A stretch of DNA of 42,120 nucleotides, from NCBI RefSeq assembly GCF_029233945.1, contig NZ_JARGOQ010000008.1, forward strand, positions 1 to 42,120. The letters run 5' to 3'. This DNA is from Sneathiella sp. GTDB lineage: Bacteria; Pseudomonadota; Alphaproteobacteria; Sneathiellales; Sneathiellaceae. The notes under the pieces are model-generated. The model made no database searches, was not told the origin of the DNA, and saw only the letters and a list, made by a program, of their open reading frames with translations. Each line of letters opens with the position of its first letter. Position 1 is the stretch's first letter. The position numbers and the translations under genes are program-made. Below, one piece after another: positions 22,665-26,577 of the stretch.

Positions 22665-22737
22665 ATAGAAAAACTGAATGTCACCAACAGGCGATGCGTC
22701 CATTTCTTTCAATCCATTTCAGACAAAGGATATTATC

Positions 22738-23367
22738 ATGAAAAAACTTACCGTAAGCGCGATTGCCCTGGCCATGCTCGCCACACCGGCGATGGCGGGC
22801 TGGAACGGCCCCTCCTCCGGTGGCGGCGGGGGCGGCGCAGGCGCAGGCAACCCCGATCTATCGGTCGACAGCAATGGAGTTTTCTCGAGCGTCAGTGGCA
22901 ATGGCGGCACCGTCACCGTTGGGGGCAGCAACTCCGTTAATCTGGCAAGCATCAATACTGGAAATGCTCTTTCGGTACAGAATATCAATGATTCCCTGCT
23001 TCTTGTGAATCCGTTGAAGGCCGATCCGGACGGTGGAGCCTCTAACCCGTTCAACGTTTCCAATATTATGGCATACAGCCACTTCCAGACGACGAGCTTC
23101 AACTTTAATAAATTGAGCGGAGACGACACCAATCCCGATGCACCCGCTGTTAATGTCGAAGTTATCGCCATCGCTGCCGCTGGAGCCGGTGCCGATACGG
23201 GGTCGTCATCTCCCATCAGTGGACATTTTAACCCGGGGCCTGTCCTGCCCAGCTCCCCCTCTGCTGAAGCAGGTGCGGTCGCGGGCGTGGGCGTGGGCGT
23301 CTCAATCAACAGCTCGCCCGTAGAGGTCGTTCCGGACGACACGCCTCCCCCCAGCCCTGAGAATTAA
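22738..23367 (+). CDS. Secreted Gly/Asn/Ser-rich protein, candidate curli-like export substrate
   Basis: 209 residues from the ATG at 22738, with Shine-Dalgarno AAAGGA. An in-frame ATG at 22678 would bury the signal peptide. Signal MKKLTVSAIALAMLATPAMA cleaves after residue 20. A glycine-rich run (GPSSGGGGGGAGAG) follows, then an Asn/Ser/Val-rich part with NGGTVTVGGSNSVNLAS and a low-complexity Ala/Gly/Pro/Ser-rich C-terminus ending PPPSPEN. No Cys is present. This composition fits a surface or amyloid-type component exported by the upstream CsgG-like pore, 73 bp away. I know no named family for it. Confidence 0.65.
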   Translation: MKKLTVSAIALAMLATPAMAGWNGPSSGGGGGGAGAGNPDLSVDSNGVFSSVSGNGGTVTVGGSNSVNLASINTGNALSVQNINDSLLLVNPLKADPDGGASNPFNVSNIMAYSHFQTTSFNFNKLSGDDTNPDAPAVNVEVIAIAAAGAGADTGSSSPISGHFNPGPVLPSSPSAEAGAVAGVGVGVSINSSPVEVVPDDTPPPSPEN

Positions 23368-24562: not shown

Positions 24563-24602
24563 TGCGGCACTCCGCCGCAGGGGGCAGGCCGGTCGCCTGC
24601 GG
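24563..24602. repeat. Two adjacent hairpins at the left edge of the AT-rich insert
   Basis: TGCGGC-actcc-GCCGCA (24563-24579) is followed by GCAGG-ccggtcg-CCTGC. Both are GC-rich and lack a T-run. They lie between ctaA and the AT-rich segment that begins near 24605. They could be a boundary relic or a repetitive palindromic element; only one copy of each was noticed in the window. Confidence 0.3.
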
Positions 24603-24698
24603 GATTAATTGACTCGCGAAATTAGCAGCCTAAACTTCTCTTAATAAAGTTGTAAGAATTCTCAATTGGTGAAAATATAACTTTCAACTAGATAGAAC

Positions 24699-25217
24699 TT
24701 AGTCCACCCAACTTAAGAAATAGGATTTGGTTAGCTGGCTATACTTCTCGTCAAATTTCTCTTGGGCATCAAAAAACTCTGACGTTGCTTCGACGAATTT
24801 CTTCGCATCTCCAGGATTCAAAAATCGGTTTATTGCATCATTAAGTGATGTAATGGCATTAGAATATCTATCATACTCAGGCTTTAACCCCGGAACATCA
24901 TCGGCAACTTTCTGAGCATATGAAAACAAAGCTTTAAGTGTTTTTTGTAAATCTTCAACTTGTCTAGTTGTATATTCCGGTTTCTTGCCGACCGCAACAT
25001 CGGCAAAGGGCTGCAATTTCTGAAAAGCATCGATCGCCGTTTCTTTCGCCTTTTCATATCTTGCTGAAATTTCGGTCTTGTTATCAGATCTAAAAGAACT
25101 GAAATCGGCAACAAAAAATCCAATAATTGAACCTATAACGGCACCTGCGATAGTTAAAACTATTGCATACCTCTCCCATATAGGCCGTGATTTTTCAATG
25201 TTGCCGATCGACATCAT
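24699..25217 (-). CDS. Small membrane protein with helical tail (second gene of AT-rich pair), unknown
   Basis: 172 residues, not a recognised family. One membrane helix at about residues 17-37 (YAIVLTIAGAVIGSIIGFFV) follows a short charged N-terminus. The remaining ~130 residues are charged and predicted helical, rich in Lys/Glu/Asp/Phe, with coiled-coil-like spacing and no Cys. Four bases (ATGA) overlap the end of the upstream gene, so the two are coupled. The DNA is far more AT-rich than its flanks. It may anchor or partner the larger protein in the membrane. Function unknown. Confidence 0.7.
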   Translation of the reverse strand: MMSIGNIEKSRPIWERYAIVLTIAGAVIGSIIGFFVADFSSFRSDNKTEISARYEKAKETAIDAFQKLQPFADVAVGKKPEYTTRQVEDLQKTLKALFSYAQKVADDVPGLKPEYDRYSNAITSLNDAINRFLNPGDAKKFVEATSEFFDAQEKFDEKYSQLTKSYFLSWVD

Positions 25218-26341
25218 TTAACCTTAGTAACGGTGACATTTGTTTCAAGTCCGGTTTCTTCAGCAGCGCTTTTAAAAATCTCGCATGCTTCTTGCCACCT
25301 ATCTAACCCAAGAAGGTTTAATTGTTCTATAACAGAAGTATGAACCTCAGCAACGCATTCATTATCAGCTGGACCCGAACTATTAATAACTGCAAGGTTG
25401 CCATTTTCTGCTAAAGACACCGCATCAGGCCCAACACTCATTGCTAAGCCCAGCAAAGCTACGGTTGTGAGAGGTATTATATAGGAAGAAGATAAGCTTA
25501 TCCAACCCGGAGAGTTAATATTAGACTTAAAATTTGGCGAAAAATCTCCCAAATCTGCGAATGCCGCCTCTTTAATAGAAGCAACGTTACCTGTTTTGCT
25601 AATACTGATATTTCCCGTATTTAACGCAACAAAGTTAAGGAATGCGATTATCCTTAAATCATCTGTCGTATCATAGCTTTCGGAAGTCACTCTTAATTTT
25701 GCGTGATTATTTCCGCCAACAGTGTAATTCCCATAAGCTAGTCTATAGAAAAATTCAGCTTCTGATTTTCCAAGAAGAACCAACATATTCGGCTTGGCAA
25801 TTATATCTTGAACATGACTGGGAAGCGCTCGTTTTTCAATTTCGCTAAGCACTTTAATTTTTCTTGTCGGTATACTGTATTTTTCAAAATACTTCTCAAA
25901 TTTTTCATTTTGAAAGTCTTCTGGATCTCCAATTGGTTCCGCTATTAAAGTTTGTTTAGCAAAAGCACCTGGAGGAATAACAAGCAAATCTGTTTGCTGC
26001 ATTTCTTCAAAGTAACCTTTCAAAACAGCGAGCAGTTGGCCTTTACTCCTAGCATTTCCAAAGCTTTTATAGCTGTTAATTGAGTCGCTTGGTCGATCTT
26101 TATTTTTACGACCCTCATTTAGCCACTTTCTTATTGCGATAGATTTTTTTAATCGTAAATCCAGATTTGGCTGATTAGAGATTACCCTTCCTGGTATTAG
26201 GTCCACTCCCGGCATTTCGGGGCCAACAACAAAATTCGCTAAAAATTCATCATATAGCCTGTATCCTTTGCCGGGCCTTGCTAGATAAACTTTATGGTCA
26301 TTTTCCAATATTCGCGTATTTAAATCGACCTTACAAACCAT
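25214..26341 (-). CDS. Unknown protein with N-terminal PUA/Mrr-N-like module and membrane helix
   Basis: 375 residues. Residues 17-195 resemble the N-terminal module found before Mrr-type endonuclease domains in restriction-like proteins: VYLARPGKGYRLYDEFLANFVVG (17-40), SKGQLLAVLKGYFEEMQQTDLLVIPP (99-124) and RKIKVLSEIEKRALPSHV (160-177). Those proteins continue into a nuclease domain. Here I see none; instead a hydrophobic helix lies at about 285-303 and a Ser/Asn-rich tail with two Cys follows. It shares a 4-bp ATGA overlap with the downstream membrane gene. Low GC and position beside tRNA-Pro suggest acquisition. A defence or sensing function is my inference; homology is from memory of pattern. 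Confidence 0.65.
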   Translation of the reverse strand: MVCKVDLNTRILENDHKVYLARPGKGYRLYDEFLANFVVGPEMPGVDLIPGRVISNQPNLDLRLKKSIAIRKWLNEGRKNKDRPSDSINSYKSFGNARSKGQLLAVLKGYFEEMQQTDLLVIPPGAFAKQTLIAEPIGDPEDFQNEKFEKYFEKYSIPTRKIKVLSEIEKRALPSHVQDIIAKPNMLVLLGKSEAEFFYRLAYGNYTVGGNNHAKLRVTSESYDTTDDLRIIAFLNFVALNTGNISISKTGNVASIKEAAFADLGDFSPNFKSNINSPGWISLSSSYIIPLTTVALLGLAMSVGPDAVSLAENGNLAVINSSGPADNECVAEVHTSVIEQLNLLGLDRWQEACEIFKSAAEETGLETNVTVTKVK

Positions 26342-26460
26342 CTTTCACCCTCAAATTTATCCGCCCTCAAAGCAACTGCTATCGTACATTAGAAAAAAAG
26401 AAACTCAAAACAAACGAGAATAAAAATTTAGATAAATCACCTATGCTATGCACTTAACAC

Positions 26461-26498
26461 TAAAAAAGCCCCGAAACCGTGTGGTTTCGAGGCTTCTC
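26461..26498 (-). terminator. Rho-independent terminator after tRNA-Pro
   Basis: On the minus strand AAGCC-T-CGAAACC pairs with GGTTTCG-G-GGCTT around a 4-nt ACAC loop (one G-T pair) and runs into six T. It begins 3 bp after the tRNA 3' CCA. Confidence 0.85.
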
Positions 26499-26500
26499 AT

Positions 26501-26577
26501 TGGTCGGGCAGAGAGGATTCGAACCTCCGACCCCTTCGCCCCCAGCGAAGTGCGCTACCAGGCTGCGCTACTGCCCG
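26501..26577 (-). tRNA. tRNA-Pro (anticodon GGG)
   Basis: 77 nt including encoded CCA. The acceptor CGGGCAG pairs with CTGCCCG. The D arm (GCGC...GCGC), the anticodon stem CTTCG/CGAAG with loop CTGGGGG, and the T arm GGAGG-TTCGAAT-CCTCT are all intact. Anticodon GGG reads CCC/CCU proline codons. It lies downstream of the MerR-type gene on the same strand. The AT-rich two-gene insert lies beyond its 3' end, the usual side for tRNA-targeted integration. Confidence 0.95.

Follow-up and report, generated by a model that had tools for sequence, protein, structure and literature searches.

We sought to identify the function of two overlapping genes, here called A and B, that lie in an AT-rich stretch beside a tRNA gene in Sneathiella sp. 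The window is the whole stretch of DNA that was analysed, 42,120 nucleotides of contig NZ_JARGOQ010000008.1. A first-pass annotation had described A as a module like that preceding Mrr-type nuclease domains, set on a membrane anchor and coupled to a small membrane protein, and had proposed a new phage-defence or stress system. The question that this locus raises is what a nucleic-acid reader would do at the membrane if no nuclease is attached to it.

The gene pair occupies a variable slot of the genus

Two open reading frames of 375 and 172 residues, joined by a 4-bp ATGA overlap, were found exactly at the coordinates first noted for them (Table 1). Judged by their homologues, A and B are real genes, because these show the same gene order. 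The DNA had been called more AT-rich than its flanks, and the GC content is indeed 0.37-0.41 over the A/B stretch against 0.57-0.62 on both sides, an outlier as judged against the window only. As had also been noted, the pair lies on the 3' side of a tRNA gene; it shares the strand of tRNA-Pro(ggg) and sits just past the tRNA terminator hairpin, which we read directly from the sequence at ~26464-26493, between the tRNA and the pair. The left neighbour of the cassette is ctaA (COX15-CtaA), and a MerR-type gene lies beyond the tRNA on the right. A promoter scan returned sites no more often than shuffled sequences did.

Table 1. Features of the A/B locus, in window positions.
Feature	Position	Strand	Basis or remark
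Accessory cassette between ctaA and tRNA-Pro	24584..26458	not assigned	Congener flank alignments, low GC
Protein B gene	24699..25217	(-)	172 aa; ORF, hydropathy, homology to other Bs
Protein A gene	25214..26341	(-)	375 aa; ORF, same-order homologues, conservation
ATGA stop-start overlap of A and B	25214..25217	(-)	
C-terminal tail of A with C329 and C353	25217..25429	(-)	Predicted outside the cytoplasm
Predicted membrane helix, A residues ~287-304	25430..25483	(-)	Hydropathy
Middle module ending in conserved INSPG motif, A residues ~205-286	25484..25729	(-)	Common to phage family
PUA-like (YTH/EVE/Mrr-N type) domain, A residues ~13-204	25730..26305	(-)	hhalign and VIA-align
tRNA-Pro(ggg), landmark flanking the variable slot	26501..26577	(-)	

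Flank alignments placed the right edge of the cassette at 26458 in nine congener genomes. Five genomes put the left edge at 24583-24585, and two that have the first 55 bp in common put it at ~24640. A search for flanking att-type repeats around the cassette found none. The source genome (3.6 Mb, from an order represented by just 26 searched genomes) is the one carrier of A among 25 congeners, itself counted among the 25. The interval between ctaA and tRNA-Pro is empty (about 60-115 bp) in four congeners and filled in others by different, mostly GC-poor cargo. This alternative cargo includes a PD40 lipoprotein, HicB-type antitoxin genes, a pentapeptide-repeat protein, a DUF2971 protein and putative ThiM-like and TetR-like genes (named by sequence reading alone), among others. 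A ~45-bp stretch (window 24598-24643) recurs beside different cargo, in genome G389 about 860 bp further in, and this recurrence suggests stepwise insertion into the slot. Elsewhere in the window, a CsgG-family lipoprotein gene (PF03783; 21876-22664) is followed by a gene for a small, secreted protein rich in glycine that has no Pfam match (22678-23367), possibly a curli-like or holdfast-anchor locus.

B follows A in distant alphaproteobacterial relatives

Sequence scans of A and B from the window against Pfam, PADLOC, PHROGs, NCBIfam and PDB gave nothing significant; in PADLOC-DB 2.0.0, A had no match and the best for B was at E 0.025. No Pfam, NCBIfam or PADLOC family covers the A/B pair, and exact-peptide scans of the genome and viral collections returned no relatives. 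With tblastn, relatives of A were detected on two plasmids, one from Thioclava and a 6.3-kb one from Methylobacterium; whole-genome search added genome G283 and a lone N-terminal A fragment in G095. A degenerate DNA pattern matched every alphaproteobacterial A then known and no shuffle. Tightened for a collection scan of about 85,000 species genomes, which put the Methylobacterium copy outside its reach, the pattern found A in Aquicoccus, Novispirillum, Pseudooceanicola and a Rhodobacteraceae MAG. In the MAG, a contig break divides the A gene, and the second contig has the end of A together with B. Full-length identity of the relatives to A from the window is about 20-27%.

The co-occurrence survey called for at the outset gave a uniform result: B stands directly after A in 8/8 full-length alphaproteobacterial loci, two of them plasmids. 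The ATGA overlap is present in 5/7 contiguous A-B pairs, and the other two have a gap of 1-2 bp. Across the class, A occurs in 3 of 385 sampled genomes, and B is convincingly found only beside full-length A. Orphan B candidates in two genomes were weak matches (E 5e-5 and 1e-4) within long unrelated frames and were not counted; a match in G156 (E 0.009) lies antisense to a long repetitive ORF and was dropped. The copy in G095 (L065 / L003 1498-2052) is a lone reader of ~185 aa with no middle module, helix or B and with an unrelated frame after it, a candidate for either a fragment or a free-standing reader.

The A/B pair is a mobile cassette, as seen in its presence in one of 25 congeners, the empty or otherwise occupied slot, the two plasmids, the 3/385 class genomes and the tRNA neighbours, which also stand beside the pairs in Novispirillum and Pseudooceanicola. 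The patchy congeners and swapped slot cargo place it in a variable island, as the first-pass annotation had supposed, and not in a fixed housekeeping context. Two small overlapping genes on mobile DNA, the 6.3-kb plasmid included, could also form a toxin-antitoxin or addiction module, in which A would check a toxic membrane protein B and the pair would stabilise plasmids, islands and prophages; HicB antitoxin genes occupy the same slot in congeners. We consider such a module unlikely, since A, which is large and predicted to be membrane-anchored, does not resemble typical antitoxins, the phage family (see below) retains A without an evident B, and neither protein matches a known toxin-antitoxin family.

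Protein A opens with a PUA-like domain

In hhalign, the first 215 residues of the A family aligned with the N-terminal module of Mrr-type endonucleases at 95.5% (E 1.4e-8), the module profile having been built from three Mrr_cat proteins of the same class. All 13 controls, winged-helix or other N-termini of Mrr_cat proteins, stayed below 1% against the A family. The phage family (phrog_10226 relatives) aligned with the same Mrr-type module at 98.3%. A first structure model of A (mean pLDDT 42.7) gave meaningless matches and was set aside. The improved model, for which phage rows were added to the input and the tail was trimmed, covers residues 1-288 at a mean pLDDT of 56, with the reader domain mostly at about 60-78 and loops below 50. 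Foldseek matches of this model were rich in YTH domains, no single E-value being significant. On realignment with VIA-align 2, the best 40 rows were all PUA-like, with Z 5.5-8.8 over residues 13-204, and the unrelated rows that came next had Z <=3.4. By fold, Z was 6.8-8.8 for YTH, 7.0 for VcaM4I, 7.0 for PH1033-type, 6.1 for ASCH, 5.5 for THYN1 and about 5.5-6 for EVE. Because the step in Z is clear and the profile evidence is independent, we regard the assignment of the predicted N-terminal domain to the PUA-like fold as secure, based on a model of mediocre confidence together with an independent profile match. The Mrr-N-like opening module proposed in the first-pass annotation, with a PUA/EVE-like fold expected over residues 17-195, is therefore upheld.

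The likeness to EVE is at the level of the fold: the A family against 25 EVE proteins reached 1% in hhalign, and no A member matched Pfam EVE (PF01878) above the family cut-off. The Trp of the Mrr-type IGW motif is missing in all nine alphaproteobacterial A rows, which have Pro, Leu or Ala instead; two further aromatics, Y19 and W73, are mostly retained. This Trp is a possible pocket aromatic and not a defining feature of the PUA-like superfamily, so that its loss concerns the ligand and not the fold. Since it is replaced throughout the A family, the ligand of A may differ from that of Mrr-type modules, and a modified base as ligand is uncertain.

Fusions of a PUA-like reader to a nuclease are familiar from modification-dependent restriction (Bell et al. 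2020, PMC7641849), and YTH-like domains occur in CoCoNuT type IV systems too (PMC11090510). The EVE/YTH-domain restriction proteins (PMC7641849; VcaM4I) have the PUA-like fold in common with A, but carry a nuclease where A has a membrane module. The Mrr-type (type IV) endonucleases have a homologous N-terminal module and differ in their Mrr_cat nuclease and IGW Trp, whereas A has the middle module, the membrane helix and partner B. No A member matched a nuclease family, Mrr_cat (PD-(D/E)XK) included; the nuclease had been thought replaced by a helix near residue 290, and a hydrophobic stretch does lie there, at residues 286-304. The relationship to Mrr-type enzymes would also be explained if A were a decayed restriction enzyme that had lost its nuclease. 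We rejected this reading as very improbable, because decay would not conserve the architecture of A and a constant B: the conservation of this layout among Alphaproteobacteria, at about 25% identity, and as far as the SPG motif among Firmicutes phages largely refutes decay, and B is present at every full-length alphaproteobacterial locus.

Predicted membrane helices in A and B

Between the reader and the membrane helix, A has a middle module predicted, at low confidence in the structure model, as strand-strand-helix-strand. Hydropathy of the A helix is 1.65 in the window and 1.7-2.6 in five of the six other full-length members; the helix was undetected in G283. The tail beyond it keeps C329 in 7/7 and C353 in 6/7 members that have the tail region, the seventh having a Cys one residue later, and the fragment of A from the Rhodobacteraceae MAG has both cysteines. 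B had been described as a membrane protein with a long charged helical tail, and this description stands, with a predicted N-terminal membrane helix (hydrophobic at residues 18-36) followed by a long charged helical domain. B is far more divergent than A across the alphaproteobacterial loci; B from the window aligned with the profile of the other Bs at 91.6% in hhalign (E 8e-7). Family scans showed no homology of B to a known pore or effector.

Charged residues precede the B helix and an acidic stretch follows the A helix. These charges, read directly from the sequence, suggest that the tails of both proteins are periplasmic. Such tails, with two conserved cysteines in A, would also suit an envelope or stress sensor useful without phage, in which the cysteine tail and a coiled coil would let A and B sense the state of the periplasm. 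We hold this to be about as unlikely as an addiction module, since the pair is rare, patchy and mobile and its relatives occur in Firmicutes prophages, whose hosts have no comparable periplasm.

Phage relatives lie between repressor and integrase

A from the window matched a protein of an L. sakei prophage at E 2e-3. This L. sakei relative matched phrog_10226 at 1.3e-25, and three alphaproteobacterial As did so at 1e-4 to 2e-3. Further phage relatives were found in elements of S. pseudintermedius, L. delbrueckii, S. agalactiae and L. brevis. The A family aligned with the phage family at 98.7% in hhalign (E 2.3e-16) over 242 columns, comprising the reader, the middle module and the SPG motif. 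In 5/5 distinct Firmicutes elements (SP120 was left out as a repeat of SP276), the phage gene shares the strand of the lysogeny genes and has the integrase on one side and the repressor, or its ImmA-like neighbour, on the other. The phrog_10226 proteins differ from A in that no B partner and no Cys tail are evident, and two of the five have no clear membrane helix. In lactococcal phages, the interval between repressor and integrase includes proven superinfection-exclusion genes, commonly membrane-associated (PMC7693887).

If the family regulated lysogeny or the very mobile element that carries it, as a reader tethered to the membrane that recognises DNA or RNA of that element and was co-opted later, then the position of the phage relatives within the lysogeny module would be expected. 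The alphaproteobacterial pairs stand alone, however, with no adjoining repressor or prophage genes, and we consider this origin improbable, slightly more so than the envelope sensor.

Defence neighbours and a proposed membrane-tethered reader

We surveyed the proximity of the pair to known defence genes, as had been advised at the start. About 5-10 kb from A and B, the Thioclava plasmid encodes a CBASS cyclase (683 bits), an IetA-like ATPase and a SAVED-HNH effector (445 bits); in G283 the RosmerTA genes RmrT and RmrA lie about 3-5 kb upstream of the pair. As a simple count, defence genes within about 10 kb in 2/8 loci are suggestive. The A/B family is accessory and mobile, and it includes members close to defence genes and others in the immunity slots of prophages. 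Near CBASS on the same Thioclava plasmid are three large adjacent hypothetical genes (L141 23062-28423; 661, 492 and 634 aa) without a PADLOC match. In G283, a GC-poor gene for a 196-aa predicted membrane protein (L064 8501-9091), with no Pfam or PADLOC match, lies between a transposase and the A/B pair.

The CBASS and RosmerTA neighbours, the repressor-integrase slot in five prophages and the cargo slot of the genus with its HicB, pentapeptide-repeat and DUF2971 genes together argue for a defence role. From this gene context we infer that the pair would be a mobile two-gene anti-phage cassette with a membrane-tethered nucleic-acid reader, a reading to which we give slightly better than even chances. 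In the scheme that we favour, a reader plus a membrane effector, A would be anchored in the inner membrane with its PUA-like reader on the cytoplasmic side. The reader would bind phage DNA or RNA as this enters the cell or replicates, recognising a modified base or some other feature, and a signal would pass from it to the A tail and B by way of the middle module and helix. B would then block DNA entry (superinfection exclusion, Kiwa/Sie-like) or damage the membrane (abortive infection, Rex-like). That A senses and B acts in this detailed order is a tentative proposal, which may well prove wrong.

Both outcomes have parallels among known systems. Kiwa (KwaA/KwaB) likewise has two genes, a membrane component and nucleic-acid binding proposed at the membrane, its membrane complex bringing a DNA binder to injecting DNA (review PMC12904381); the difference is that in A the predicted reader would itself be membrane-anchored. 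In RexAB, a sensor activates a membrane effector (PMC12894663), and the pair shares with lambda RexAB and P. putida RexABpp (PMC12894663) the proposed logic of reader and membrane effector as well as prophage carriage beside the repressor. RexB, however, is polytopic (4 TM in P. putida) and RexA cytosolic, whereas B has one predicted helix. Family scans of PADLOC, Pfam and NCBIfam gave no match of A or B to KwaA/KwaB or RexA/RexB.

In a literature coverage that was incomplete, we found no description of a PUA-like reader joined to a membrane module and paired with a second membrane protein, and no paper naming the A or B proteins. It is possible, if doubtful, that the family represents a new immunity class, present both in prophages of Firmicutes and in islands of Alphaproteobacteria, whose YTH/EVE-type domain would read phage nucleic acid at the membrane and signal across it to a dedicated partner, with no cutting of DNA. 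Modified-DNA readers are known mainly as nuclease guides; if the proposal is true, a nuclease-free, membrane-wired reader with a fixed partner would be another route from base recognition to immunity, and phrog_10226, an unnamed phage family in the repressor-integrase slot, would gain a testable function. The phrog_10226 proteins of staphylococcal, streptococcal and lactobacillar prophages are good candidates for prophage-encoded superinfection immunity by themselves.
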